Assembly (NCBI GenBank): GCA_015956445.1 | Contig: WIUZ02000020.1 | Span: forward strand, 310,001 to 374,000 | Source: Thelephora terrestris | Taxonomy: Eukaryota > Basidiomycota > Agaricomycetes > Thelephorales > Thelephoraceae | Direction of reading: 5' to 3' | DNA: 64,000 nucleotides | In this document: positions 8,743-27,456 of the stretch, in pieces | Numbering within the stretch: position 1 is the stretch's first letter | Layout: each line of letters begins with the position of its first letter | Program-made: the position numbers and the translations under genes | The notes under the pieces: model-generated | What the model was told of the DNA's origin: nothing | The model's input: only the letters and a program-made list of their open reading frames with translations | Databases searched by the model: none

Positions 8743-9631
8743 AAGTCGTTTTGTGCGTGTGGGTGTAACGGATCTATAGGCGGACGGTGTGGCTTGAGAG
8801 AGGGAGGGGAGAAAAGCGAGGTAGCACGCAGATTGCTGTTGGCCTTTAATAACCCAGGGAAGGCGCACACTGCATCCTTTTGTTCGCCTTTGGCAATCTG
8901 CACCCAGGGATGATGTGACCAGCACCTGAAGTTTTAGCCGAACGTTACGAGTCGACTGCGTACTGGAGCCCTTTCAAGATACGGAGACAAAGGGAATAGG
9001 ATCCAAAGCACAGGTGCTGTGAGAAATACATGGTGTGAGGCGGGGGAATTTGATGGACCAGAGTCAAGTCACATCACGGGTGTACTTAGTCTACTGCACA
9101 AACACACTTTTCGAGCCCACCAATTCCAAAGGGTACAATCGCGAAACGTAGTGACTCAAAGGAAACGCTCAACGAATCATGCGCATATACCTCCCATCCA
9201 TTGCCCGCTGGAGGTCAGACGTCCTTTTAGAAGCCTTCGAAAGTGGACTCTACACCACTTGCGCCCCTCCGCCAACGCCGTCAACCCCACGAAGAACCCT
9301 CGCTTCGAATTCAAGGCCGTTTCTCATTCTCTATCGCGACCTCATTATCTCATATTCCTCGCCTTCTGGTCAATGGTCGTTACTGCCATTTGGTTGGACT
9401 TCAAGTTTCTTGAAAACCAGAACGACGATGGAGTACACTTCCCTGTCGGAGATCCTGCAATCCACGCTCGCACTTGACTTAAAGCAATGTTGAAAGCCGC
9501 ATCAGATTTGGACCATACCTTCTGAAGAATAGAATCACATTGCACCCAGTTGTGCTTGTTCGCAGAATCGTCGAAAAGACACAGGTGTGGCTTCGCCGCC
9601 CGTGTCGGCGTTTCAATTTTCCATTTACCTG
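8743..9631. other. upstream region of DUF6535 gene, no other gene seen
   Basis: This holds the 5' flank of the DUF6535 gene. An open frame on the plus strand (9019-9477) has no recognisable family features and lies opposite a minus frame belonging to the next relic. I see no convincing gene. Confidence 0.4.
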
Positions 9632-10131: not shown

Positions 10132-10844
10132 GAAGAGTACTTGATAGTGTGTCATGTGCGTGAAATCGGCGCGGTTCTACCGGTCATGTGGATCGAGTCG
10201 GATCGAGGTGACAAAAACATGTGGGCGGAGGGTATTTTAAGCATATGATAGGAAGTTATGGAAGCTGGACGCCAGGTACGGAAAGCACGGGCGTCTTGGA
10301 AGGCAAAGATCTCTCAGAACAGACGAAGGAGGAAGATGGGGATTGGGCTGTAGAGAGGTTGAATCTTTGTGAAAGAGTTGCAGGGAACAGGTGAGATCGA
10401 CTGAATTCTTGGAATTGGCTTTCGCGGATGGGATGAGAATTTAGCAGAGAATGATACTAGGACACTTTTCAGAAAACATTACGGACCCCGCGGGCCGCCG
10501 TGCATGGTTGCACCTAGAAATCCACCTCAATTGCTCCGGTTCGACACACGAACACGGGAAAGGCTCATACGCAGATGAGCGGGAACTCCACCGATCGGCG
10601 ATCGAGCCACCAATGCCCTGGTGAGTCTCCCAGAGATCCAACCCATACCAAACGACCGGGGTTCATCGATGGGGAAGTACCCATAAGAAAAATGGGAGTA
10701 TACGAGCCGTTCTTTCGCTTGGGATTTTCCGCAACTCAGGTCAGATCCTAGGAAACAAATACACCTTCATTTCGTAGAGGCTCGGACACGATCAACCGGG
10801 TGCGTTCTAGGATACGGTCCGTCTGATAACGATAGGAACCACAC
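10132..10844. other. intergenic with duplicated flank
   Basis: No gene is seen. The stretch around 10551-10640 (gaactccaccgatcggcg and following) is a diverged copy of the sequence downstream of histidine-phosphatase copy B (near 13491) and of copy C (near 15462). This shows that the duplicated unit extends past the coding region. Sequence near 10360-10440 also resembles 29590-29660. Confidence 0.5.
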
Positions 10845-12250
10845 CTAGACGCTGCGATGAGATGCAGAAAAATGTTCGATGGAAGGACGCGTACCTCCGG
10901 TTGGCAATTTGTAGGTTCCCCGACCGACGACGCGTGTCAACCCGCCAATGAATCCGCTATGTGCAGTGATAGAAATGTCTTACGATCGCTGAGCGGATTT
11001 CAGTGTAGTCTACACCGTTCAGACTCACAGGTTTCCGTGGGGTATCTATCCCAAATATGGTCAAGGATCGACAGGGCCCTTGCATCAACGTGTTCGTCGG
11101 TCTCTCGGTTGTCGGGAGTCCACAGCTCATCCTAAGAAGATGAAACTTGAGCTGTGCAGGAGCAAAGAGGGAACATACCTCCTCAGTAAATCCCCTCTCG
11201 AAGGTGAACGAAGGGAAACTCTGTGCAATCCAAGACTTGGGATGGCGTTTGTCGCAGGTGTGTACACCATAGACTTCACGACAATTCTACACGTGCGAGG
11301 TGAATTCGAAAAATTTCGAGCTTGTTGAAGGGACCTTCACCTCAGCAATCACGACCTTGTGGCTCGGGTGCAAATGGCTGGCATGGGTCTTGTTTGGTAG
11401 AGTGATATCATTCCATGTGATTTCGAGCGTGCGTGAAGCCCGAGTGAGGGGGCTAGAATAGAAGACTGTTGGAACTGGGATTCCAGAGGGTATCTATAGG
11501 GTTGTAAGGTCTCATTTCGCAGGTTGAATGAAATCCATCAAACAAACTTCATCCAACCACTTGTTATGGGCGGCTTCCGCTTGCTGAACCCCGAGTGGAG
11601 TCAGAAGAGCATCGGCTGAAACAGTGATTCGGTAAATAATTCTGTGTTGGGTTACACAGATACTCACGTCCCCAAACTATTGTACCATCCCCGTCCAACT
11701 TGGACCAGTAGCTTGAAAGGCGATGTGATTGTGAAGCGTGGTCTAGATCACGTGTTTGCTCACTCACTCGTCCCACGCCTACAGAGAAGTTGGGTTTATT
11801 TTCACCATGAATACAGGTGGTGCTCACCGGCGTGCCGTATTTAGCCTCAGCAAAATTGTCTGAGGACCGACGCGTTAGAAACAGAAGCGCGACGCGAGCG
11901 AACAAGACCTACGGAAACCTTCGCCGTGTCTCCCCAAGAAGAAGACCTTCACCGAATCCTCCGGTTCACCTTCCAAGTTCAATGCCGTGATATTGAACCG
12001 GAACTTTTGCCAATGGCCAGGGCTTGAATCTAGTAAGCCGAATCGATCTGGTAACTGCGAACGGGGATCAACCTTCGGTTCAGGCTCTGGAGCGTTCAAG
12101 TGACCGCGTTTTACTTACCGCGCCGATTGCATTGGGATCTGCTTGAGGGTCATCTTGTGCGAAAAATCCGGGAATGTATGCATAGGTGGGGTTCGAGGCC
12201 ATGGCTTGAATGATAAACAAGACTGCAGAAAGTATCAGGGAACGGAACAT
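10845..12250 (-). CDS. secreted histidine phosphatase, phosphoglycerate-mutase-like (copy A)
   Basis: The minus-strand ATG at 12250 opens a typical signal peptide (MFRSLILSAVLFIIQAMA) followed by YAYIPGFFAQDDPQADP. Introns of 50-65 bp separate the later exons: LPDRFGLLDSSPGHW, then VFFLGRHGEGFHNFAEAKYG with the RHG phosphohistidine motif, AWDDYWSKLDGDGTIVWG, DALLTPLGVQQAEAAHNKW, VPTVFYSSPLTRASRTLEI, NCREVYGVHTCDKR, FERGFTEEDELWTPDNRE, and the last exon with ISITAHSGFIGGLTRVVG, which supplies the second catalytic His, ending at 10845. All exons join in phase, so this copy looks intact. The family removes phosphate from diverse substrates, including phytate-like compounds; the substrate cannot be read from sequence. 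Oldest-looking of three tandem copies. Confidence 0.85.
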
Positions 12251-13012
12251 GCGCTTGATGATAAGAGGATGACCAGGCGTGCGCTTCTTCCACAGAGCCG
12301 CGCTTTCACCCTCCTGAGGCCAACTGCCAACCCACGAACGTGTTCTCTCAACTCCAACCTGCGGGCGTTCCCGAGAATTACTGATGGAGGGAAGGCGATC
12401 GGATCAGTTTCGGACTCGGAGCCTCGAGTCTCCCCTCGTGCACATACGAAGGACGCTACGCAGCATTCTGGCCCTAGTGGAAGGGTCCGCAGGTGTACTA
12501 TGGCCCTCGCTGAGTTCAATATTTGGCCTGAGGGGATTTGTGGGCGGGTGCGAGCTGTTCTGTCTTGGTTAGTGAGTGGGGAACTTGGCCGACGGGTGGC
12601 GGATCCCACGGCGCCGCACGGTGAGATGAGCATTTTTCCGGGAGAGAAACCACGAAGTTTGCTGGAAAAAGCTTCTGGAGAATTTCCGGAGATTCCGATC
12701 AAGGGGTTGGGGACGACCGGTGCAAACCGTTTTCGAAGGGAAAAGCTCCGCTTGTTAAATTTTGAGAAGCTGAGGTGGTACCTGCGCACGCTTTACTGGA
12801 GCAGCGTATCAGTTGGGTCAGCGTCGTGGATGGGGAGGGTCCTCCTCCGCTCTATCCCGTTTGGATGCTCAAGCGCTCAAGCGCTTATCGATATCAGTTG
12901 TGTTTACTGCAGTGTGCACGCACCCGGTGCATGCTTTCGGCCGGGCCGAGATCATGAACACCGAACCAACCGAGGCGGAATGGACGAATTCGTGGCTGCC
13001 ATACTGAGATTA
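12251..13012. other. upstream flank of histidine phosphatase A, duplicated
   Basis: Several long open frames overlap here on both strands, but none matches a family. Part of the stretch (about 12790-12900, containing ctctatcccgtttggatgct) recurs upstream of copy B at about 15338-15425, so it belongs to the tandemly repeated unit. A related inverted piece is at 48035-48090. Confidence 0.5.
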
Positions 13013-13423
13013 CAGCTGGTTGCGTTTCGATAGGCCTATTCCTACAAAATTAGGCCCCGCTTTTTCGTTCACGTTTTGATGGTATTGGGGCCGGCACCCC
13101 GGCATCATGGCACCTGCCGGTTTTCACATCGGTCTGCAGCAGGTCATAAATTGGTCTCTTTCGCTCTGTTTTTGGTAGTTAGGGTGGTCAGTAGCTAGTG
13201 GTTAATGCCAGGCAAGTACTGGAATCTTTCTGGGACGGGTACGAAAACGGGAGCGAGTGATGATGTAAGGCCTGAACCAGCATCGTGTGATTGGTCCGGC
13301 ATCGCGCGTCTACCCCCGGCATCTGCGTCATGCCAGGATGCCGAGCACCAATACCATCAAAACATAAATAAGAATTTGGGGCCTAAATTTGTGGAAATAG
13401 GCCTATCGAAACGCAACCAGCTG
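13013..13423. mobile_element. MITE with TA target duplication
   Basis: A 411 bp non-coding element begins CAGCTGGTTGCGTTTCGATA and ends with the exact inverse, flanked by TA on both sides (13011-13012 and 13424-13425). The inverted repeats extend, with mismatches, for over 40 bp to the GGCCCC/GGGGCC block. A second internal inverted pair follows (ttttgatggtattggggc against caccaataccatcaaaac). TA duplication and long inverted repeats are typical of a Tc1/mariner-type miniature element. It lies between the repeated units of the histidine-phosphatase array. Confidence 0.85.
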
Positions 13424-13616
13424 TAAATCCCCGTCGGCTCTTGTAGAATCGCCGTTGGAGTTGTGGAAATGGGCCACCTTGCACGGCAGGGAAACTCCAC
13501 CGATCGGTGACCAAACCACCAATGCTCTAGCGGTTGTTCGGGGATAGAACAGGATAGAACCCACACCAGCCAACCGGAATTAAGCTCGGAATCTCGGAAA
13601 CAAGTACACTTTCGTT

Positions 13617-15065
13617 TCACAGGAGCTCTAACACAATAAAGTGGGTACACTCTAAGGTACGGTACGTTTGATAACGATGGGAATTACACCTAGATTCTGC
13701 GATGAGGCGCAGGGAAACATTTGAAGGAAGGTACTCGTACTTGCCTCCGGTTGGCAATTCGTAGGTCCCCCGACCAACCACGCGTGTCAACCCCCGGATG
13801 AACCCGACGTGAGCAGTGATGGAAATGTCTAATAACCGCTGAGCGGGTTTCAGGTGAGTCTACAGTGACTGCTCAGACTCACATGTTTCCGTTGGATATT
13901 TATCCCAAATGTCGTCAAGGATCGACAGGGCCCTTTCATTAACGTGCTCTTCGGTCTCTCGACTGTCGGGGGTCCAGAATTCATCCTAATAAGATGAAAC
14001 CTGTGCTGATTTTGTTAGAGCGCGACGACGAAACACACCTCTTCACTGAATCCGCTGTTAAATTCAAACAGAGGGAAATTCTCCGCGATCCAAGACTTTG
14101 GACGGCGTTTGTCACATGTGTCCCCGCCACAAACTTCACGACAATTCTGCGCATGTGCGAGGTAAGTTCTGAAAGGTTTGAGGCTCGGCGAGGAAACCCT
14201 ACCTCTGCAATTACAACCTTGTGGCTCGGTTGCAATTGGACGTCTTTGGCCTTGTTTGGGAGTGTGATATCAGTCCAGGTTATTTCGAGGGTGCGCAGAG
14301 CCCGAGTGAGGGGGCTGGAATAGAAGACCGTTGGAACCGGGGTTCCAGAAGGCATCTAGTGGGCCGTAAGATTTCACTTCGCAGGTCGAACGACTCTATG
14401 CTTCAGACCTCATGTAACCACTTGTTGTGAGCGGCTTCTGCTTGCTGGATCCCGAGTGGAGTCAGGAACGAATCAGCTGGAATCGCAGTTCAGTAAACCA
14501 CCCCGTATTTGAGAATGGAGATACTCGCGTCCCCATACAATTTCACCATCTCCGTCCAACCTTGACCAGTGGCTTGGGGGGTGATGTGAAGCGTGGACTA
14601 TCTAACAGGTTTGCGGACTCACTCATCCCATGCCTAACGGGAAGAGGAGTCAAAGCGGTGTTTGCCACGAATATAGCAGGTCGAACCTACCGACATGCCG
14701 TATTTCGCCTGGGCAGCATTGTCTGAAGACCGACGCATTAGAAACAGCAGCTTGACGCAAGGGAATCAGACCAACGGTAGCCTTGACCGTGTCTCCCCAA
14801 GAAGAACACCTTGATCGAATCCCCAGGTTTACCTTCCAAGCCCAAAGCCGTGATGTTGAGCTGGAAACGTTGCCAATGCCCGGGATTAGAGTCTAGCAAA
14901 CCGAATCGATCCGGCAACTACGAGTGACGGACGACTTTCAGTTCAGGCTCTGGAGCGTTCCAGCAACCGCGTTCCGCTCACTGCGCCGATCACATCGGGA
15001 TCTGCCTGGGGGTCGTCTTGTGCGAAGAATCCGGGAATGTAGGCATACGTGGAATTCTGTGCCAT
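13617..15065 (-). CDS. histidine phosphatase, phosphoglycerate-mutase-like (copy B)
   Basis: Same exon order as copy A: YAYIPGFFAQDDPQADP, LPDRFGLLDSNPGHWQ, VFFLGRHGQGYH with the RHG motif, HWSRLDGDGEIVWG, DSFLTPLGIQQAEAAHNKW, VPTVFYSSPLTRALRTLEI, NCREVCGGDTCDKR, DEFWTPDS-type exon, and SITAHVGFIRGLTRVVG. Differences from A are informative. The upstream ATG is ACG and part of the signal peptide is deleted, so translation would start at the internal ATG (15065) without a signal. The splice donor after IVWG is GC instead of GT. The C-terminus is longer and frame-shifted after ELPTGG, ending at 13617. It could still make a folded enzyme, but probably not a secreted one. Copy C shares the first two changes. 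Confidence 0.7.
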
Positions 15066-15622
15066 GGCCTGGATATCAAGCAATAGGGCACAACGTAGGC
15101 GTGATGATAAGGGGATGTCCGACTGTGCGCTTCGTCCATAGACCTAGCTCCACAGACTCGCGGGCGTTCCCGAGAAACAGCGATGTGGAGAAGGTGATCA
15201 GATCAGTTCCGGAACTCAACTTGGTTGAGCTGTCTCTCCATGCCGCACATCACCTGGAAGCTTACATCTATCTGTTCTCCGGGGCTGGGGGTCGTTGCCA
15301 ACCGTTTTCTGTTCTATCATGCCCGGATCGCACGCTTTACTGGAGCAGCGTATCAGTTGGGTCAACGTCGTGGATGGGGATGGTCCTTCTCCGCTCTATC
15401 CCGTTTGGATGCTAAAGTGCTTATCGATATCAGTCGCGTTTACTGCACGCACCCCGGCAGGGAAACTCCACCGATCGGTGATCAAACCACCAATGCTCGA
15501 GCGGTTATTCGGGGATAGAACAGGATAGATCCCACACCAGCCAACCGGAATTAAGCTCGGAATCTCGGAAACAAGTACACTTTCATTTCATAGGAGCTCT
15601 AACACAATCAAGCGGGTACAGT

Positions 15623-15844
15623 CTAAGGTACGGTACGTTTGATAACGATGGGAATTACACCTAGGTTCTGCGATGAGGCGCAGAAAAACGTTTGAAGGAA
15701 GGTACTCGTACCTCCGGTTGGCAATTCGTAGGTCCCCCGACCAACCACGCGTGTCAACCTCCGGATGAACCCGAGGTGAGCAGTGATGGAAACGTCTAAT
15801 GACCGCTGAGCGGATTTCAGGTGAGTATACGTTGTTCAGACTCA
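15623..15844 (-). pseudogene. last exon of histidine phosphatase copy C, cut off by transposon
   Basis: This minus-strand block is the final exon and part of the last intron of copy C (SITAHLGFIRRLTRVVG, then ELPTGGTSTFLQ, stop at 15623). The matching front part of the gene is more than 9 kb away at 25280-26465. Between them sits the Plavaka transposon. The exon carries the second catalytic His, so loss of proper splicing would inactivate the enzyme. Confidence 0.8.
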
Positions 15845-16076
15845 CATCAGCAAACTTGTCCCAGCCGGATCTGGCCAGACGGCGAATGCCGGGCCAGATC
15901 AGGCCTGACGAACCAAGATGCTGCGCGCGCCTCGCAGGTCTTGATCCGACGAGGGACCGCGTTCGACCCTTGGTGTGACCCAAGTGTGACCGGAGGGTCA
16001 GACAGTCGAGATCACGTGAGATGTGGCCATATCTGGCGCACACCCTGCAGACCTTCGCAGTCGATGACGGTCGGGC

Positions 16077-16129
16077 CTCAACTGTACAGTAGTAGTCACA
16101 CGTAGTCACACATATATAATTAATAAAAC
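16077..16129 (+). promoter_or_regulatory. promoter block of small gene 1, duplicated upstream of gene 2
   Basis: The 50 bp before the ATG reads CCTCAACTGTA, then two TAGTCACAC-type boxes, then an AT-rich TATA-like stretch (atatataattaa) directly before AAACATGA. The same order of boxes stands before small gene 2 (about 16905-16969), so the promoter was duplicated with the gene. Confidence 0.6.
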
Positions 16130-16779
16130 ATGAGATACCAACACAAGCCTGAGTGCGACTGCCTTCCCATTTCCCCTACAAAAATGCCGGGACTCCCCTT
16201 CACCATTCATTTACACCCTACCCGCGATTCCCCCTTCCAGTGGATGCCCCCCCGCCTGGAGGAAAAATACCTGGAGCAAGCGAGGCTTCAATGCCAACAC
16301 CAGTGAGTCTGCCATCAATTACTCAATTGAATGTCATACCTGACAGCGCTTCCCATCAGGAATGCCTATTTTGACGCGGTCTCCAGGGTTTGCACGCCGA
16401 GAGTCCGGACCTTGATCTCGGAACATTGCCGAGAACGCCTCGACACGCTCAACGCGGCGGCGGAAGCCGCCATCAAAGAGAATGTGGAAGACGCCGACCC
16501 GGAATACGCGATGATGATAAACACCTTCACTCAGCTCGAGCTGAGTTATTACTTAAGTGAACAGTACCTGTAAGTTTTTTATTTATGTAATGTTCGCCCA
16601 GACTGACTCGGCACGTTCCTAGGGAAGCGTACGAGGCGCTCATCAAAGCCATTGGCATGCCGTTCTTCGACGTCGCCGGAGATCGCCTCAACAAAAAAGA
16701 CGACTGCAAGGCAACCGAAGAAGAGAGCGAGGCGGACATGTTCTTGTTCCTCGCTCAAGCAGCAGCCATGCACGCATGA
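16130..16779 (+). CDS. small transposon-borne protein 1, unknown family
   Basis: Three exons, 16130-16302, 16360-16569 and 16623-16779, join in phase to 179 aa. I do not recognise the family. Recognisable blocks are SPFQWMPPRLEEKY, NAYFDAVSRVCTPRV, AAAEAAIKENVEDADPEYA, INTFTQLELSYYLSEQY and EAYEALIKAIGMPFFDVAGD. No membrane segment or zinc motif is seen; the protein is predicted to be mostly helical. Gene 2 (16970-17609) has identical exon boundaries and the same blocks, so the two arose by tandem duplication. Both lie inside the Plavaka transposon, downstream of and facing the 3' end of its transposase gene. Confidence 0.75.
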
Positions 16780-16807
16780 ATGAACCGGGTATTTTGACTA
16801 GCCGAAA

Positions 16808-16860
16808 ATTTTTTGTATGTTTTTTGTATGTTTTTTGTATGTTATTTTGTATGTTTTTTT
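16808..16860. repeat. TTTTTTGTATG tandem repeat
   Basis: Four imperfect copies of an 11 bp TTTTTTGTATG unit lie just behind the stop codon of small gene 1, probably in its 3' untranslated region. Confidence 0.85.
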
Positions 16861-16969
16861 CAATATAAATCAGTCGCCTAAACTCGACCTCAGGCCCCTG
16901 CCAGCCTCAGCTGTATAGTCCGACTTGTAGTCACACACGGTCACACAATAATATATATAATTAAAAAAC

Positions 16970-17609
16970 ATGAACACTAGTGACAAGTCCGAGCGCCGCC
17001 TTCCCCTTTCCTCTACAAAACCGACGAGCACCATGCAATACTATCCAATCCGTCCCACCCCCTTCCAGTGGTTGCCCGGCACTCTGGCGGAGGAATTCAG
17101 GTCCCGCGACAAGCTTCGCGAAGAATTACAGTAAGTTTGATCAATTACTCAATTAGATCAGTGACGGCCTGACACACCGGCAACTCTTCACATCAGGAAT
17201 ATTTTTTTTGATGCAGTCTCCCAGGTTTTCACGCCCAGAGTCCAGGCCATTATCTCGGACCAGTTTGAGGACCGCCTCAAGAAGCTTTGCGAGGCAGCGG
17301 AAATTGAGATTAAAAAAAATGTTGCTGTCGCCGAGCCGCGATATGCGGCCATGATCAACACGAGAACCCAGCTCGAGCTCCTCAACATCTTATGCGAAGA
17401 CTACCGGTATGTTTTCTTGTTTATGTAATGAGCGCTCAGACTAACATAATCTCAGGGAAGCGTACTTCCGGCTCATGAAAATCATCGGCGTGGGACTCTT
17501 CGACGTCATCGGAGACCGCCTCAACCAAAGGGAGGGCCGCAAGGAAACTGAAGACGTGAACCGCCTCAACAGGCTCGGGCGGCTCGCTGAGGCGGCATCT
17601 GGGCATTAA
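16970..17609 (+). CDS. small transposon-borne protein 2, paralogue of protein 1
   Basis: Three exons, 16970-17130, 17197-17406 and 17456-17609, join in phase to 174 aa. The middle exon is exactly 210 bp, as in gene 1, and both introns are in the same phase. Matching blocks are TPFQWLPGTLAEEF, IFFDAVSQVFTPRV, EIEIKKNVAVAEPRYA, INTRTQLELLNIL and EAYFRLMKIIGVGLFDVIGD. The C-terminal tail differs. Function unknown; conserved exon structure with changed residues suggests both copies were maintained for some time. Confidence 0.75.
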
Positions 17610-17787
17610 ATTAGCCGAGTTGATTTGTCGTGCGGCGGCAGGAATTTTGACTTTGAAGTTGTACCTGATATGTTTTTTCTCATGTTTTTTATGTAACGCA
17701 TATAGTCCAAGAAATATTGAATGTATTGCGTCAGGCTTTTACAGAAAAATCGTTACTTGTATCGAGGGAGTAGTAATATGTGTGTTG

Positions 17788-20700
17788 CTAAGCGTCCGCC
17801 AAACCATACGAGTCGTACTCGAGATCTGAGGAAATCTCGTCGGAGTCGTCATCCAGTGCATCATCGCTTGAGCCACTCTTGGACGGCGCGTGGTCTTCGT
17901 CGTCTGACCCCTCTGAGCCCTCACAGTCATCGTTGCCTAAGGGGCCTGTTGTTGGATTGATAGCCACGGGGTCCTGGGAGTCCGAGTCGTTGTCGCTGTC
18001 GTGGTTGCCGGCCATGTTGTTGATGGTACTGTCACGGTTGGTTTGAGGTATTCCAGGAGGCTCGTGACGAGAGGTTTGTTTGCCATGCAGGCGGACTCGG
18101 AACATATTCTCGTGCGTCGTCTCAATGTCCCGCATGTACTTGTGCCCGACACCGCCTCCGCGATAGCGCATGAACATATCGCGGTCGACGAACCTGAAAT
18201 ACGGAGGTTAGGTAATGGTCCCTCTGTCGACTGCCAAAAAAAAACTTACTGGTTGACGTAGTAGGCCTCCCAATCAGACTCCGGCTTGGGATCCCACTCA
18301 CTCGCAGGAGCGGCTGGAGAGAGTACCCTGTGTCCACGAACAAACCCGGGGATGAGATGGGACCCGCGAACAATGTCATTCGGGTCAAGAAAGCCGAATG
18401 CGCCGTCCTCAAGGGGTGGAATGAACCTGAGTCGATAGAGCCGTTTGGCTTTCCACCCTGCCCGGTGAGTCTCGTCGATCTTGAACCAGCGAACCCAGAT
18501 GACGTCCATCCTGACTTCGTCCGGCGTTGTTGGCCCGTGGAGAACATCAACCTTGAAGATACCGAGGACATGGGCATAGGCGTATGGGTGGTGTCCGTCG
18601 TGTGAGAGAGTCATGATGTGTGCGCGGTTCTTCATGTTCACCCGGTCCTTGCCACGCCGAAGGTCGTAGGTAGTGTAATAGACGTTGATCCCGTAGCGTT
18701 GTTCGAGGCGATCCTCGGATATGTAGAGTTGGTTGCGGTCCTCCTCGGTGAATAGGGGTGGTTCGGCGTCGTACTGCTTATTGAGAATGCGAGCAAGCAG
18801 GTGGTCCTTGAGCAGGGTGGCAAAATCCTATTGAATGACATCAGTACAGCGGTTGATATGGTGGGAGGGCTACAGGTTACCTTTAGCGCAGGGTCGCCGG
18901 GATGCTTGTTCGACAGGGCGTAAAGGTCCACGTGGTCCCTGTCCTTCTTTGCCATTGAGTGATGTTGCTGCGGCGCCGAACTCACAACACCATCCGTGGA
19001 TGGACCAGGTCGAGATGTTGTTCTTCCGCCGGTTTTGTTCCTCAGGGCGTTGACGTACTTCCGATAGTGGCGTTCGATTCGCTCGTGCTTGGCAATCTGC
19101 CGCTCAAACCGCACCTTGTTGGTTCGCTTGTAAAACCTCTTGACGCGGCGGTGTTCGAGCTCACCCTGTTTGGCCAGTGACAACGGATGAGTGCGAGGAG
19201 GATCGGCGACGATACAGAACAAACCTGCTGTGTAGAAAAACAGTCCGTTGGGCCAAACTGCTCGATGTTGTCTGCATAATCCCCGAGTGCGTGAATCTTG
19301 TATGTTTCCAGATTGAACCCGGACCCTTTCGGTACCTTCGGTTTTAGGTTCTGCTTCTTGGGTTGTTCGGAAGCACCGGGAGCAACCTTCTTGGTTTTCG
19401 CAGGCCCTGGGGGGGCAGCCGGTTTGATTTTGGCAGCCCGGCGGCGATAAGCGGCGGCAGCTTCACCTGGCAATGGTTTCGTCGCATACTTTGGACACAG
19501 CTTGTTGGCATAGCAACGAAGCTGACGTCCAAGTTCTTTCGTCTGCGAACGAAGGGACTTGATGGTATGTGTTGTGTGCATTCGGAGCTTGGCATAAGCG
19601 TGCCATGTGGCAAGATCAAAGGCGAGATCAAGAAGGAGGCGGTTGTCATTCGAGTCAGGTAGTATACCTTCGAGGACCGGGATCCAACACTAATAGGAGG
19701 GCGTCTCGGGAAGTGGACGTGATCAGGATGATGTAGCTACCTACCTGCATGATATCCTCGAAGTCTCGACCTGCGAGCTTTTTCATCGCGGAGACGCTAC
19801 CCCCAAACCTGCGGATGGTGTCACGGCCAAAGGTGGGGACTTGGCGGAATCTGGAGGAGAGAGGAGTTAGCCGGTGGAGAGGAGTGGCCACGAAATCAGG
19901 TTCTCACCGTGTGTCAAAGGTGTTGACCGCTCCCTGGCCGAGCGCGTGTAAGATTCTGATGTTGTGTGTGACCACACCCTTCCCGAAACCGAGTTCACAA
20001 TCGTGGAGGATGTCGACCGGCATGATCGTGGCCGGGTTGACACCAAGCTCAGTGTGGTATGCGTTCTAGGAGAAGGTCAGTTACAGAACATGCGGGCGTA
20101 GAGAGAGATTGCATTACCCTGGTAGGAATCAGCGATCCTCGCTTCAGAATCTCCAAATCACCACCGACACTCCTCCCAAGATCAAAGATAAGCCTTCGCG
20201 CACATTCTACACGGCCGGCGGCATCGTTGGCGTAGTCGCGAAGGAGACGACGTATGCTGTGGTCACAATTCATGCCGATTTTGGGAACACGTCCCTTGAC
20301 GACCAGGCAGCGGGGGCAGAGGAACAACCCTAAGCTTTTGATCGTTGCTAACGTTGACCTGGATAGGACTCAGTATCATTCTCATGAGGTTGGTGAAAAA
20401 AACTTACTTCTCTTTGTAATCCGCCGAGTGCAGAAGAAGTTCAAGGAGCCAGCGGCGCAAAATCCCATCCCCACATTTGACCTTTCGAAGGTTCTTATGA
20501 GCCTCCGCAAACGAGCCGGCTAAGATTAGACGCAGGACCCCGTGAGTCAGCTCGCGTCCCAAGTAGGTGAGCATCTCTGAGCTGGGTTCCTTTTTGTAGT
20601 GTTCGCGGTAGAACTCCTTGATGGTATCAGGGAGCTGCCGATCGTTGATCAGTTACATTGGGACAACGTTAGAGATGGAATTATTATCGACACACCGTGG

Positions 20701-22087
20701 GAATGTAGGCGATGTGGTGGGCAGAGAAAGATGATGGCTTCGAGCGAGTGTATTTTGAGACGTTGCCAAGAAATAGATAGATTGGCCACAGGGAAGCGGT
20801 CCCAAAGGAGGCAAGGTGGGTAGAATCCGAATAGAGGAGTGCCGACATGACGAAAGTCTCCAGATTGTCCTCGCCGTGCGCCATCGCAGCGCTCAAATTG
20901 TCTCGCATCCTCTTATCGGCCTCAAGCATTGCGTCGGAGTTGTAGATCTCAGAGTATATGCGAATGGGATCTTCGTCCGGGCCTGGACTCCACATTTCCT
21001 TAAACGGAGCGACGTGTATGTCGTTGAAGGCATCAGGGTCCTCCAGCTCGGCCGTAATCACTTCAACAGGATCCCGATAGAGGATCCCAGTTACAACGAA
21101 CTCAGGTGCATCACATTCCTTCTGTTCCACGCCTGTACAGGGCACCCGTATGCTCACTGAACCTTCCTTCCACCCATCGCCTACCGCGAGTCCAGCGCCA
21201 GAGAAGTGTTTTCGCTCGAAACGCCGGATCGCGGTCACAGCATTGAAGTCTTCGAGTTCCGAAGGTTGGAACTCAGGATGCATGATGACGTTGTGGACAA
21301 GGTCGTTGATTCCTGCGGGGGTGTTTCCTGGTCCTGTCGCCATCCACGAGAGGATAAGGTCAGATGAAAGGTTTGTTGAGTTGGTGAGGGAGCGGTGTTC
21401 TGATTCTGGAGGGGGGGCGACCATCAAACCAGATCCGATGGATTGGGAGGCGGGAAGACTCGGTTGAGCATCCACGTAGACGTCTGCGTTGCGAGGGTTG
21501 TGGGAGGAAACAGCGGGGTACTCTCGGAACACCCCGAAAGAGTTGGCGTTTGTCACGGTGATAGCGGGGGCGCGGTTTGAGGTTTCAGTAGAGGTGTCGA
21601 GTCCACTATCGTGCAGTGGATTGGAATCGAGAGAGGCAAGAGGTTCGGTTTCCTTTTCAGGACAAGTATTGCGTGCCGTGGCACGTGGTACAGGTGCTGG
21701 CAGCGAGTCGCGGAAACGCACCGGAAGACGCCGCGTTCTCACCGAACGTTGAAGTCCAGCATCAACAGCTCGTTCAAACAGCGGGACCTATATAAGGTGA
21801 GTTAATCTCCTGCTCTATAACAGGTACATGACTCTCACCGGTGGCAACTCAGGTTCACGGTGTGCAGCTTCAAATGCTAGCCGGACTTCCAGATCTCGCC
21901 TTCGGCGGTCTTCCTCCTCGTCCGCATCGCGCTTGCGCTTCAACGATCTTGCAATTGCGAGGGTCGTTTCTTCATCTGGAGTGTCCTCGTGAGTTCTTAA
22001 CCAATGTTGATGGAGTCCGCGAGCTGATGAGAAGACCTGCCGCTTTTTGCTGGTGGCGCAGGTTCCCTCGTAGCATACATGAGACAT
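17788..22087 (-). CDS. Plavaka-family transposase
   Basis: The minus-strand ATG at 22087 opens a C2H2-like N-terminus (MSHVCYEGTCATSKK with HQHWLRTH) and a basic-acidic linker. The long core exon reads EIYNSDAMLEADKRM and LLYSDSTHLASFGTASLWPI, a hallmark of this family and probably holding the first catalytic Asp. Further exons give KVKCGDG-type sequence, LCPRCLV, MPVDILHDCELGFGKG, FRQVPTFGRDTIRRF, YKIHALGDYADNIEQFG, GELEHRRVKRFYKRTNK, WVRWFKID, FGFLDPNDIVRGSHLIPGF and MFMRYRGGGVGHK, then an acidic Ser/Asp tail ending at 17788. About nine exons, with no stop noticed inside the coding path. Family members are RNase H-fold cut-and-paste transposases related to CACTA elements. Divergent from the DUF6698 gene, 168 bp apart. 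Confidence 0.85.
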
Positions 22088-22255
22088 AGTTTGGTGGCCC
22101 AATGCCGCCTTGTTTGGGAATGGTATGATGATGATGACGATAAAAGACTTATGGCCAAAGCCGAAGCGGATCCATCGACATCTGAACTCGGCACCGTGAT
22201 CAAACAAAATCCTGCAGCAGGGAGTAACCCCTATCAACTCGTTCCTCTCCTGACC

Positions 22256-23807
22256 ATGGCAACTGTGACCCAACCCGTCGACAACTCTCAAAGGTATGGT
22301 CTAATCGCACGCCCATGGATGTCCACACCGTGCTCATTTGTGATGGCGGCCCCCTCTGACAGCGAACCCGCGCTTACTCCCCAGGAGACAGAAGCCATCA
22401 AAGACAAAGCGAGATGGCTTCGTCGTGTAGCTAACCCTTTCGCAGATTTCTACGTCATCGTCGCCATCGGTGCTGCTGGTTCTCCGACGGTCACTGAAGC
22501 GGCCCGAAGGCATGGAGACAAGCAAACGCGAACTCACGCCAAGGACCTGTACGTCCAGCTCATATCTGAGTCTGCGCGCGGGTCAAGATGGACTAACTAC
22601 AGCTCTTACAGCACGCCAACTCAACTCCAAGTTTATGTTGAGGACTTCGACGAGATCATTTACCACCTTCCGTTCCTCAAGCATCGCCTCGAGTCCGATG
22701 TGCCATCCAAATTCATTCGAAAGACCTTAAACTACGTACGTCCCGCTTACATCAGATCCCGCCCATGACAGCTCAAAGAGAAACAGGTTCAGTCACTTGC
22801 ATCGCAAGCGAGGCAAACGGACACCAAGACTATCAAGCAGTCTACCGTCTCGCTTATCCCGCAAAAGTACTTCCCACACGGTGCAGACAGCAATGCGGCC
22901 GTGAACCCACACGAGTTTATCAAGGTCCTGAACCCGGGTGCCACCAAGTCCTGGCGTGGGTGGGGAAATATCGTCACGGCCAGGTTGCTGTGCCCGATCG
23001 ACAACCTTAGCGAGTTCATCGCAGACCCAGAGAGGCAAGTAGCAGCATATCCACCCACACCCTTGCTGATCAGGCACGCCCACCCTCCAGTACCAGGGCG
23101 AAGCTGCGCGATGGGAAAATCAAGCTGATTGACAGTGCGGGAGATCCAAAACTACCTGCTTTTCTGTACGACGAAGACATGACGGACGGCTCTCTCGCCC
23201 AGGGTCTCTTCCGTGGGCCTCTTTTGTTGGCGGTGAGTTCCACTGCTCGAGTCTCACGCGATAGGGCGCCACTGAGCATCAACCCTAGGTATACACCCAC
23301 ATATTCATCGCGCCTTCTGCTGCCACCCTCGGTGCAAAGGTTTCGCTGAAACCCGGGAATGCAAAAATCCACGGTATGATGAAAGTTCTCCCACCAACGA
23401 TCTGTTACGCGGCGATACAGGTATCCGTGGATGCATCAGCCCTCCCGCTATCTCTCACACCCCTCACCCTCCAGGCATACATCACGTTGTGTTGCAGCAA
23501 GGAATGGAAGGAACAATGGAAGGGTATCCAGTTTCCGCGGCTCTACATCCTCCTTCGCGAGCAATTCGCTCACTCGGATGACCCCTGGCGCGCTGAAACT
23601 CTCAAGTGGTGGGACGAGTATGTATTGTGTTCATCCCCTCCTACACTCATGTGCTCACAATATCCTAGGAAAATATTTGGCGGGGCGCCTGATACGGATG
23701 AAGAATTGCAGGAGGAAGAGCGGGAGACACAGGGACCATCCATGCGCTCTCGCATGGAGAACGAGCGACTCGCGAGGATCCAAGCAGCGAGTCAGGCTGC
23801 AGTGTAG
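22256..23807 (+). CDS. DUF6698 domain protein carried by the transposon
   Basis: The plus-strand gene starts at 22256 (MATVTQPVDN) and ends at 23807. Exons encode ALTPQETEAIKDKARW, LQVYVEDFDEIIYHLPFLK, SLIPQKYFPHGADSN, WGNIVTARLLCPIDNL, FLYDEDMTDGSLAQGLFRG, VYTHIFIAPSAATLG, ICYAAIQAYITLCCSKEWK and WRAETLKWWDE. The order, and the GLFRG, YDED and LCP blocks, match DUF6698 proteins of mushroom fungi, whose biochemical role is unknown. About six introns, all short. It shares a 168 bp divergent promoter region with the transposase. A role as an accessory transposition protein is inference only. Confidence 0.8.
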
Positions 23808-23955
23808 TAAGGACGTTCGATTCACACCACTGGCTCGGAGACGGCATCCCTGTTCCACGACGATTGTAAATTTAAATAAGCCACATGAGATTTTGAATGT
23901 AAAAATCTTTTTCTCCTGTCGCTTAACACAACTTTGGCGCGGCCGCCGCGCGGCG

Positions 23956-24797
23956 ATGTCTCAGCAAGCCGCCGATTTGAATTCCTCCTGGTGTTGTCTC
24001 CAGATCTCCCTATGTCTCGTTCTCAGGAGGTTGGATCCGTCGAAATACCTCACTGGACGCCACCCGCCGGTCACACTGCGTCACACGAAAAAAAAACATA
24101 TATCTTGGGGCGAGGATGGTGCCAGCGGCCGCATTCAACTTCCGGGCACTCTTGCCACGCACAACGTCTCTTCCCTCCCATCTCCAACTTGAAGTCCCTC
24201 GCGATGGTTTCCTCTCCGAACAGCCGTGACTGCCCGATCCTCTCCGCTGGCAAATTTACGGTCAGGTGTGAATCTCCACCTTCTGTCTGCTGGACCGTTG
24301 CTCACGACCTGTTGTTTCGAGCAATCGCAGCTCTTACGCAACATCACGTTTTGAGTCTGTCGTTTCTCGATTAAAGGTATCTATTAAATATCATTGTTTT
24401 TTAATTTGACACTTTAGAGCTAAATACCTGCTCTCCGCAGTCTGCACCTCCGCCAGCAACTAACCCGCTTTCAGATTTCGGCACCCCGCCCGCACTTTCA
24501 GGGCCGATCGTGCGGGATACATGTGGATCCCTGTTTCAGTACGTCGCTTTGTTTTTCATGCCTACCGACACTAATCCACTCCCAGGTTGCTCCGCAGCGC
24601 CGTGCCTCGCCTGTCCCATTCCCTTTCCCAGACAACACCAACAACAGTGGCGACGTCCCTCCTCTCCCGCACGCCGGTGATGATGGCGAGATACCTCCCT
24701 TCGTGGATGCCGACGACGATCACGAGATCCCTCCCCTTGAGCACACCGACGATCGCGACAACGGCGATACCCCCCTCCTCGTTTCCGAATCTCACTG
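23956..24797 (+). CDS. hypothetical gene near right end of the transposon
   Basis: A possible multi-exon gene begins at the ATG at 23956, just after a GC-rich palindromic stretch. Candidate exons are not certain. The best part is the last exon (about 24586-24797), which follows a good intron and encodes an acidic, proline-rich, loosely repeated tail: DVPPLPHAGDDGEIPPF, EIPPLEHTDDRDN. An upstream exon (about 24444-24538) is also proline-rich. No family recognised; an alternative is non-coding sequence within the element. Confidence 0.3.
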
Positions 24798-25279
24798 ATC
24801 TATACTACTCACCCCACTACTCTTCCCCCGCTGGTTTTCAGGCCGTTCCCTGTACATCAGCATCTCTCTGCGTCTACGTCCGTACATATCTGTTACTCAC
24901 TGATCTGGCAATTCCATGTTTTTATTTTCTGCCGTGTTTTCTGCAAACAACCAAAATAAATTGGGATTTCATTATGGCGGGGTTTGATTTATGGATAATG
25001 AATATTTCTATTTGAATTTACGATCCAATTTCGGAATATAAAAATTGAAAAGAAAAATATACCGCCTGACCCTGATGGGGAGATCTGGCCTGATACTATC
25101 GAGGCCGCAAAAGATCTGGCCGGCTCAAAATAAGGTGAGGGCAGATCTTATGCCGCAAGTCGCGGATCTGCTTTCGTCTGCCAAGAGATTACCTGCCGAA
25201 CTTCGAATGGCCAGACGGCCCACGTCTGGACATTTGTTGGGAGATCCGGCAAGATCTTTCCCGGACAAGTTTGCTGATG

Positions 25280-26465
25280 CACAGGTTTCTGTTGGGTATT
25301 TATCCCAGATATGGTCAAGGATCGACAGGGCCCTTGCATTAACGTGGTCTTCGGTCTCTATGCTGTCGGGGGTCCAGAATTCATCCTAATAATATGAAAC
25401 CTGTGCTGATTTTGTTGGAGAGCGACGAAGAAACACACCTCTTCACTGAACCCGCTGTTGAAGTCAAACAGAGGGAAATTCTCCGCGATCCAAGACTTGG
25501 GACGGCGTTTGTCAGAGGTGTCCCCACCACAAACTTCACGACAATTCTGCGCATGTGCGAGGTAAGTTCGGAAAACTTTGTGGCTCGGCGAGGAAACCCT
25601 ACCTCGGCAATTACGACCTTGTGGCTCGGGTGCAGTTGGACGTCTTTGGCCTTGTCGGGGAGTGTGATATCAGTCCAGGTTATTTCGAGGGTGCGCAGAG
25701 CTCGAGTTAGGGGGCTGGAGTAGAAGACCGTCGGAACCGGAATTCCAGAAGGCATCTAGCGGGTCGTAAGATTTCATTTCGAAGGTCGAGCAACTCTATG
25801 AGACACACTTCATTCAACCACTTGTTGTGGGCGGCTTCCGCTTGCTGGATCCCGAGTGGAGTCAGGAACGAATCAGCTGGAATCGCAGTTCAGTAAACCA
25901 CCCCGTATTTGAGAATGGAGATACTCGCGTCCCCATACAATTTCACCATCTCCGTTCAACCTTGACCAGTGGCTTAAGGGGTGATGTGAAGCGTGGACTA
26001 TCTCACAGGTTTGCGGACTCACTCATCCCATGCCTACCAGGAAGAGGAGTCAAAGCGGTGTTTGCCACGAATATAGCAGGTGGAACCTACCGGCAAGCCG
26101 TATTTCGCCTGGGCAGCATTGTCTGAAGACCGACGCATTAGAAACAGCAGCTTGACGGAAGGAAACCAGACCAACGGTAGCCTTGACCGTGTCTCCCCAA
26201 GAAGAATACCTTGATCGAATCCCCAGGTTTACCTTCCGAGCCCAAAGCCGTGATGTTGAGCTGGAAATTTTGCCAATGCCCGGGGTTTGAGTCTAGCAAA
26301 CCGAGTCGATCCGGCAGCTACGAGTGACGGACGACTTTCAGTTCAGGCTCTGGAGCGTTCCAGCAACCGCGTTCCGCTCACTGCGCCGATTACATCGGGA
26401 TCTGCCTGGGGGTCGTCTTGTGCGAAGAATCCGGGAATGTAGGCATACGTGGAATTCTGTGCCAT
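25280..26465 (-). pseudogene. front part of histidine phosphatase copy C, split by transposon
   Basis: From the minus-strand ATG at 26465 the exons follow copy B: YAYIPGFFAQDDPQADP, LPDRLGLLDSNPGHWQ, VFFLGRHGQGYH, AAQAKYGLP, SRLNGDGEIVWG with a GC donor, DSFLTPLGIQQAEAAHNKW, VPTVFYSSPLTRALRTLEI, NCREVCGGDTSDKR and DEFWTPDSIETEDHVNARA up to YPTET. The transposon begins three bases into the last intron, leaving gtg followed by its terminal repeat. The last exon lies at 15623-15844. Unless a roughly 9.5 kb intron is spliced out, the enzyme lacks its second catalytic His. Confidence 0.85.
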
Positions 26466-27456
26466 AGCCTGGATATCAAGCAATGGGGCACAACGTAGGC
26501 GTGATGATAAGGGGATGACCGAGTGTGCGCTTCGTCCACAGACCTAGCTCCACTGTGCCACAGTCTTCGCGGGCATTGGCGAGAAACAGTGATCACTGTG
26601 ATGCGGAGAAGGTGATCAGATCAGTTCCGGAACTCAACTTGGTTGAGCTGTCTCTCCATGCCGCACATCACCTGGAAGCTTACATCTATCTGTTCTCCGG
26701 GGCTGGGGGTCGTTGCCAGCCGTGTTCTGTTCGATCCTGTCCGGATGCTCACAAATGGCCGAGGCAACACAAGGAAGCGAGTATGATCATTCGAGTCGAC
26801 AAAGACTTACGGAACTGCGCATCATCTCCTGTGTTATCAACGTTATGGATGAGGTGAGTTAATATCAACAAGGAATCGTAGTCGCATGTTGACCGTGCAA
26901 TCCCGTGCAGGGGTTTCCTCGCCCACGACTTTGGATGTGGTTCATACTAGTATCTACCGGGTGTTGAAATTGAAACGTCGGGTTCCCTCATTGTACACCG
27001 TCACGCGTCATCAACCGAACTGACACACCGCTCTACGACCACAGTTATTGCCACTTCATCTGCTTGAAATTCAAAAATCATTCAGAAAACCATTCCACGC
27101 CGTCTTCAATTGCTTGGTCGAATTCTCCGGGAATTTCCCGATGGTTTTCCAGCAAACTATGAGGTTTCTCTCCCGTCAGGTTCACAATGGAACCCGGCAA
27201 CCTATCAGCTGACTTCTCTGTTGCACGCTGTCACATAAGTCTATTAACGCACTTCCTGTTTCCGCCCGCCACCACACAATTTCCTGATCGGACCAAAAGA
27301 AGGGCGTTTGGTCCACATCAGTACCCAGGAATTTACCCGGCAGTGACATGCACGGGAAGCCAGGTAGCCTGCTGGATGCGGTATAAAGGTCAGAACCCAG
27401 GTACTGTTGAATGGTCCTCCTTGCCTTACCCCTGTCACTCATTCTAATTATCTGAG
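26466..27456. other. intergenic upstream of copy C and the lipase
   Basis: The first 300 bp are the duplicated 5' flank of histidine phosphatase copies B and C. No gene is seen after that. Sequence near 27090-27180 in reverse resembles 12636-12700 (cgggagagaaacc and agtttgctggaaaa). A TATAAA box at 27382-27387 stands about 70 bp before the lipase ATG and is its likely core promoter. Confidence 0.5.
27382..27387 (+). promoter_or_regulatory. TATA box of lipase gene
   Basis: TATAAA lies 70 bp upstream of the ATG at 27457, a normal distance for a fungal core promoter. Confidence 0.55.

Follow-up and report, generated by a model that had tools for sequence, protein, structure and literature searches.

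CACTA/EnSpm transposons have CA..TG ends, subterminal repeats and a second protein of the TNPA type. The passages of Kojima (2025; PMC12730594) that bear on classification describe CACTA/EnSpm by CAC..GTG ends and 3-bp target duplications, place it with Plavaka in the CMCT transposase group, and define PlavakaB by 5'-CATCA..TGATG-3' termini and target duplications of 2 or 3 bp. A transposon family is commonly viewed as a lineage whose members evolve as units. Here we describe a PlavakaB-type element from Thelephora terrestris, contained in a 64,000-nucleotide stretch of assembly GCA_015956445.1 (contig WIUZ02000020.1, positions 310,001 to 374,000 of the forward strand; hereafter the window), in which one end and the gene that it carries appear to have a separate and younger history than the remainder.

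Results

The element spans positions 15845-25279 of the window (9,435 bp) and is copy C13 in what follows. A search of the genome that contains the window (40.6 Mb, 60 contigs) with the left 1,156 bp of the element returned 32 matches, which resolve into 16 elements on 11 contigs. Fifteen copies have a recognisable transposase, and their cores fall into seven lineages: I (C13, C60 and C12b), II (C18), III (C59a, C23b and C56c), IV (C12a, C22 and C8), V (C56a, C56b and C58), VI (C4) and VII (C23a).

The left ends of these elements are far more alike than their cores. The left cassette comprises two units, both on the forward strand. L1 (15845-16829, the left 985 bp) contains the terminal repeat, AGATC motifs, GTCACAC motifs and a small gene, g1, and is 89.7-97.5% identical between lineages; L2 (16830-17700) contains a second small gene, g2, and is at least 90% identical in 11 of the 16 copies. 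Identity between lineages is 66.4-77.2% for the transposase gene and 62.5-73.5% for an adjoining DUF6698 gene, both measured over columns aligned to C13 by BLAST, a restriction that overstates their likeness if anything. At the right end, the last 200 bp are 62-75% identical between lineages where they can be aligned, and those of lineages III and VI do not align. Synonymous divergence shows the same gap. Over the 21 pairs formed by seven lineage representatives, synonymous divergence per site (dS) of g1 has a mean of 0.157 (0.098-0.206), compared with a transposase dS of 1.11-2.82 where finite; the proportion of synonymous differences (pS) is 0.58-0.76 for the transposase and 0.55-0.75 for DUF6698. 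The left cassette and the core thus differ approximately tenfold.

Introns and other noncoding sequence were compared as well. In the same 21 pairs, identity is 0.925 for the noncoding part of L1 and 0.966 for the g1 introns, whereas six comparisons to C13 across lineages, covering seven of the nine introns in the transposase model, give 0.62-0.69 (and one comparison within lineage I gives 0.994). Because the g1 introns are alike while the transposase introns are not, the likeness of the left ends extends beyond what selection on protein would maintain. Judged by divergence, in all seven lineages the left end has a history much younger than that of the transposase with which it shares an element.

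The loss of similarity is abrupt. In 60-bp windows, the drop falls at element position ~985 in lineages V and VII, 1110 in C59b, 1740-1765 in lineage IV and ~1850 in lineages II, III and VI; when this element is aligned with lineages II, III and VI, the left-end match ends at window positions ~17690-17703. The drop occurs just past a small gene, at T-rich sequence resembling TATGTTTTTT in the lineages whose junctions were printed, and only weak similarity lies beyond it. A drop at ~1680 in C12a is a nested insertion, after which the match resumes to 1762; the lineage IV junction is taken from C22 and this resumed match. The drop in C59b may itself be a nested insertion or a truncation. Inboard of the C23a junction lies a g2-like gene that has diverged strongly. 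Compared in this way, the core and right end do not share the history of the left cassette (terminal repeat plus g1, or plus g1 and g2).

Within lineage I, the left ends have diverged more than the cores. Left-end and core differences are 4.22% and 1.01% for C13-C12b (Fisher p 6e-16), 4.78% and 1.21% for C60-C12b (p 6e-17), and 1.34% and 0.61% for C13-C60 (p 0.005). Moreover, the left end of C12b is a patchwork: over its first third the closest copies are C18, C56a and C56b (each with 3 differences, against 7 to C13), and over its last third the closest is C59a (4 differences, against 16 to C13). The pairwise homoplasy index (PHI) test, applied to 14 aligned rows with C8 and C56b omitted as duplicates, gave p 0.0005 over 108 sites, with no shuffle of 2,000 as low. 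The core tree rejects the groupings C12b+C18 (p 1.4e-8) and C18+C56a+C56b (p 4e-74). With the L1 tree, neither C12b+C18 (p 0.226) nor C13+C60+C18 (p 0.382) was rejected by approximately unbiased (AU) tests. From these alignments and trees we conclude that left ends were apparently exchanged between lineages and then spread within them, which the first-pass annotation of the window had overlooked.

We then asked which genes accompany the cassette, using a simple splice model whose exon borders are predicted and approximate. In this model, g1 (16184-16779, forward strand; exons 16184-16302, 16360-16569 and 16623-16779) encodes 161 residues, and g2 (17033-17609, forward strand; exons 17033-17130, 17197-17406 and 17456-17609) encodes 153 residues and is related to g1, the DNA of the two being 71-75% alike. 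Sequence similar to g1 is present in each of the 16 elements and nowhere else in the genome at E 0.001. The gene is free of internal stops and interruptions in 14 of the 16 copies, C58 having a stop and C56c a nested insertion; the final stop was unread in five of these 14, where a 4-nt gap shifts the aligned end. The ratio of nonsynonymous to synonymous divergence (dN/dS) of g1 is 0.11-0.45 between lineage representatives, a range by which the gene is under purifying selection. Given this ratio and the 14 intact copies, g1 therefore probably yields a protein important to the element. Neither g1 nor g2 has a Pfam match, the best for a g1 exon being COQ7 at E 0.11, below the cut-off, and a PDB sequence search with g1 returned nothing credible (best E 0.42). 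CpG transitions make up 487 of the 1,395 differences in L1 over the 21 pairs, as expected if the copies are methylated, and may explain why the AT-rich introns appear more alike than synonymous sites.

The transposase gene lies on the reverse strand (17788-22087), and its 10-exon model encodes 1,265 residues with no internal stop. PF18759 matched the exon open reading frame (ORF) at 20684-21787 with E 1.5e-15 (57.7 bits, cut-off 26.3) and that at 20404-20652 below the cut-off (E 1.1e-4, 22 bits); a PDB sequence search with one transposase exon found nothing credible. Motifs C(2)C and H(3-4)H ahead of the last catalytic E are a further mark of PlavakaB transposases, and a CPRC stretch can be made out by eye in the modelled protein. 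The first-pass annotation had described a complete, autonomous-looking Plavaka element that included a DUF6698 gene, and these results agree: the element, as modelled, is apparently autonomous, and the DUF6698 gene (PF20414; four exons, 22256-23807, forward strand) is matched by PF20414 in two exons. A further possible small gene, g3 (24204-24798, forward strand), has a weak splice model and occurs, among the 16 copies, only in the three of lineage I; it may be a passenger.

Matches to DUF6698 in the genome number 95 and correspond to 43 loci. Among 62 transposase-exon matches, the 42 strongest (E up to 8.2e-14) define 39 loci of this Plavaka clade, and the remaining 20 weaker matches define 20 further loci. 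Locus counts are based on these exon matches; genome-wide scoring for PF18759 covered 123 of 261 candidates, lacked the exons of this element and did not enter the counts. A clade transposase lies within 10 kb of 32 of the 43 DUF6698 loci, compared with 0.86 expected from a simple Poisson estimate, and within 15 kb of 33. Thirteen of the 32 paired loci belong to the 16 elements (with C22 and C8 counted twice) and 19 are elsewhere. None of the 43 is within 10 kb of a weaker transposase locus, and one is at 11 kb. The pairing is incomplete in both directions: 10 DUF6698 loci lack a clade transposase within 15 kb, although two of them have one slightly farther away (16.5 and 17.3 kb), and DUF6698 is absent within 15 kb of 6 of the 39 clade loci. 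With 32 of 43 loci near a clade transposase, DUF6698 is therefore a partner gene of this Plavaka clade in this genome, and its co-occurrence with the clade led us to reject the possibility that it is a stray passenger. No mention of DUF6698 was found in the literature searched. The lone loci, such as C2:973289-974107, which is the best match, may be host genes or stranded remnants.

Two claims of the first-pass annotation are not supported by these genes. It had spoken of passenger genes, a label that we reject for DUF6698 on the co-occurrence just described and for g1 on its presence in all 16 elements and only there. It had also called the element composite. We rejected a composite transposon, in which two elements would flank shared cargo, because the element has a single transposase and a single pair of terminal repeats.

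The ends of the element are precise. Inverted-repeat and genome 17-mer searches place the left 17-bp terminal inverted repeat at 15845-15861 (forward strand) and the right at 25263-25279 (reverse strand), and the termini read CATCAGC...GCTGATG. The arms (15845-15879 and 25245-25279) are identical over the outer 17 bp and 80% complementary over 35 bp, and they are the longest of 50 inverted pairs detected in 10.5 kb. With at most one mismatch allowed, the genome contains 21 instances of the 17-mer, 10 forward and 11 reverse, compared with zero for a reversed-pattern control, a number that does not reflect chance. The first-pass annotation had named two outcomes that would refute it, a lack of further copies with these ends and similarity that extends past them. 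Neither holds: such copies exist, and their flanks differ, the 30 bp upstream of the left end being distinct in all copies except C22 and C8. C22 and C8 have the same flanks, and we treat the pair as a single locus that the assembly contains twice.

Right ends with a matching dinucleotide were located in 12 of the 16 copies, or 11 loci when C22 and C8 are counted once. The search for right ends allowed up to 2 mismatches, and homology and matching duplication guided the choice, so that these 12 were not sampled blindly. The duplications are CA, TG, GA, TA, TA, AA, TT, AC, TA, TA, AA and TC. No right end was found for C4, C58, C59b or C23b within the stretches fetched. Copies with both ends measure 9,181 bp at the shortest and 37.7 kb at the longest, and nested insertions evidently account for the size of the long ones. 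C56c and C23a, swollen to 37.7 and 32.7 kb, have retained both ends and a matching 2-bp duplication. C12a and C56b share a repeat, with stretches resembling GTTTACTGACG at element positions ~2047-2450 and 8865-9267, apparently another nested element. The full-length element was probably active until recently.

Both ends are rich in AGATC. We counted this motif in one copy per lineage, leaving out lineage VI, which has no known right end. In the six lineages, the left 200 bp contain 3-6 occurrences compared with 0.4-0.6 expected (0-9 of 300 shuffles reach this number), and the right 250 bp contain 6-10 compared with 0.5-1.6 expected (0 of 300 shuffles); the inner stretch has no significant excess (22-104 of 300 shuffles). 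In this element, the right subterminal region (25030-25279) has 10 occurrences, with 0.83 expected. By analogy with the subterminal repeats of CACTA elements, AGATC may be the motif bound by the transposase. We also considered GTCACAC as a general target motif, which occurs 4-9 times per element in 10 elements (1.2-2.1 expected), and rejected it: most occurrences are in the left cassette, and their excess is not independent evidence because that cassette is common by descent.

The site of insertion was examined in the tandem gene array that surrounds the element. The target is a histidine-phosphatase-like gene that is present in at least three tandem copies (window positions 10300-15844 and 25280-27200), with stretches that are 76-93% identical. 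The left flank aligns to 10729-11027 in paralog 1 at 79% and to 13484-13881 in paralog 2 at 93%; the right flank aligns to 11026-12296 at 76% and to 13880-15328 at 93%. In both uninterrupted paralogs, the left and right alignments have exactly 2 bp in common (11026-11027 and 13880-13881), which is the empty site, and the element is flanked by the corresponding duplication, CA, at 15843-15844 and 25280-25281. The first-pass annotation had reported the 17-bp repeats, the flanking CA and the restoration of the paralogous sequence upon removal of the element, and all of these hold. Its assignment of the target as a phosphatase is also borne out by the spliced model of an uninterrupted paralog, which matches PF00300 with E 4e-5, although no Pfam match was obtained with individual exon ORFs from either the interrupted gene or the paralog. 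It had further placed the insertion in the last intron. According to the gene model of paralog 1, the site lies inside a 5' splice donor, GTGAGT on the reverse strand, which belongs to an intron close to the phosphatase gene's 3' end that is not necessarily the last. The duplicated TG corresponds to intron positions 2-3, and the donor would read GTGCAT with the element present. Based on this model, the insertion would be expected to harm splicing of the phosphatase.

Discussion

Our preferred reading is that the left cassette has been exchanged between Plavaka lineages, most likely through repair or conversion at an end on which several transposases can act; we assign it as a whole a probability of roughly 0.8. 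We infer the mechanism of exchange and the function of g1 from the features described above. The transposase would act through the AGATC subterminal motifs, cutting at CATCAGC...GCTGATG and joining with a 2-bp stagger. A left end that was broken or excised would then be repaired from the left end of another element, or be overwritten by gene conversion, and repair synthesis would switch back to the home copy in the T-rich sequence (TATGTTTTTT) that forms the 3' end of g1 or g2. The received end should still serve the home transposase, because the ends of the different lineages share their outer sequence and the AGATC motif. The process could be one-sided if left-end breaks are more frequent or if g1 is favoured, and g1 would be the likeliest reason that the cassette spreads. 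A role for g1 as a trans-acting helper or anti-silencing factor is a guess from analogy.

Several points weigh against this interpretation. All lineage comparisons come from one genome, the junctions were placed by similarity only, and the Fisher tests cover six within-lineage pairs only, three of which do not follow lineage I. The left ends are the more similar part in the lineage III pair C59a-C56c (0.17% different, core 1.18%) and in the lineage IV pair C12a-C22 (1.61%, core 3.53%), and left end and core do not differ in the lineage V pair C56a-C58 (p 0.58); in C59a-C23b, outside the Fisher set, L1 is 98.6% and the transposase 99.2% identical. In AU tests with the L1 tree, lineage I is not rejected as a clade (p 0.126) and C18+C56a+C56b is disfavoured (p 0.032), and C12b is set apart from C13+C60 on weak forks (47/94). 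Lineages III, IV and V each form one clade in both core and L1 trees, and exchange has therefore not been rampant. AGATC was picked after frequent 7-mers had been viewed, and left ends that are shared do not provide independent counts. Finally, C59b (from C59:812792 onward) has a left cassette (93% over 977 bp), with neither a transposase nor DUF6698 recognisable and no right end in 15 kb, and could be a non-autonomous element, a truncation or a left end attached to another core. As far as these comparisons go, the case for exchange is one that rests on divergence depth and patchwork more than on L1 topology.

The rival closest to this reading is concerted evolution only, in which frequent conversion has always kept the left ends alike while the core and right end drifted. 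The PHI signal and the patchwork inside L1 would be expected from such conversion, as would a left end that can be aligned in 16 of 16 copies, and conversion requires the high identity that the left end alone has retained. The step in similarity near the end of a small gene is sharp, however, with no gradient, and the older, diverged g2-like gene just inboard in C23a suggests that an outer piece was replaced. We therefore regard concerted evolution only as doubtful, while noting that it overlaps the preferred reading, since left-end sequence exchange is common to both. A more ambitious version of exchange treats the left end as a selfish or adaptive module, in which g1 aids any element that bears it, one-sided conversion has swept the cassette through at least seven lineages with transposases that lost their mutual likeness long ago, and the end cassette, rather than the entire element, is the unit of selection; we offer this version tentatively, as one that may be right but that we would not favour at present.

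Explanations without exchange fare worse. If the left 1 kb were under extreme nucleotide constraint, for instance as regulatory sequence or RNA, the presence of GTCACAC and AGATC in the left end of every copy examined would make sense. Constraint would have to account for g1 introns at 97% and L1 noncoding sequence at 92% beside transposase introns at 62-69%, and also for the L1 patchwork; moreover, a left end that differs by 4.2% where cores differ by 1.0% is the reverse of what constraint produces. On the strength of the introns and this reversal in lineage I, we rejected constraint as the cause of left-end likeness and consider it very improbable. An ordinary autonomous Plavaka element with captured passengers, the left-end likeness being unremarkable, would have just the ends, duplication and transposase seen here, all of which are typical of PlavakaB. 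The approximately tenfold synonymous gap between cassette and core, the tie between DUF6698 and the clade at 32 of 43 loci, and the occurrence of g1 in all 16 copies and nowhere else at E 0.001 speak against this account, which is improbable in our view, if less so than constraint.

If left-end exchange is correct, it becomes testable whether ends and helper genes spread alone and whether one end serves several transposases. The finding likewise opens the roles of g1 and DUF6698 to testing, and DUF6698, a Pfam family of unknown function, gains a context in one Plavaka clade of this genome.

The element resembles CACTA/EnSpm in its CA..TG ends, its subterminal repeats and its CMCT-group transposase, and differs in having CATCA ends, a 2-bp duplication and DUF6698 where CACTA/EnSpm has a TNPA-type second protein. 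With CATCAG ends and 2 bp, it falls outside CACTA/EnSpm proper (CAC..GTG, 3-bp duplication). By its ends, its 2-bp duplication and PF18759, the three features used for the assignment, it fits PlavakaB, a known kind. The PlavakaB elements described in the relevant part of PMC12730594 share the CATCA..TGATG ends, 2-bp duplications, Plavaka transposase and a fungal host; they differ in carrying TET/JBP cargo, DUF6698 has 0 occurrences in the main text of that paper, and its text on PlavakaB contains no shared left-end cassette that we could see. In the literature searched, we found no description of left-end exchange in Plavaka, only general parallels in end exchange and gap repair.

Two such systems offer points of comparison. 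In the account of Arabidopsis VANDAL elements given in PMC5735166, as far as it concerns us here, VANC is a sequence-specific anti-silencing protein. The likeness, a transposon-borne gene adjoining short repeated noncoding motifs, is analogy only, and a VANC-like anti-silencing role for g1 would be an analogy in the same sense; VANC targets diverge between related elements, whereas here the end is shared (PMC5735166). For Galileo, a P-superfamily transposon of Drosophila, the portion of PMC4168063 on structural change attributes structural variation to gap repair, template switching and ectopic exchange. What varies in Galileo, by that account, is the structure of the terminal repeats, whereas in the Plavaka elements described here a one-sided, gene-bearing end appears to have crossed between deeply diverged lineages.

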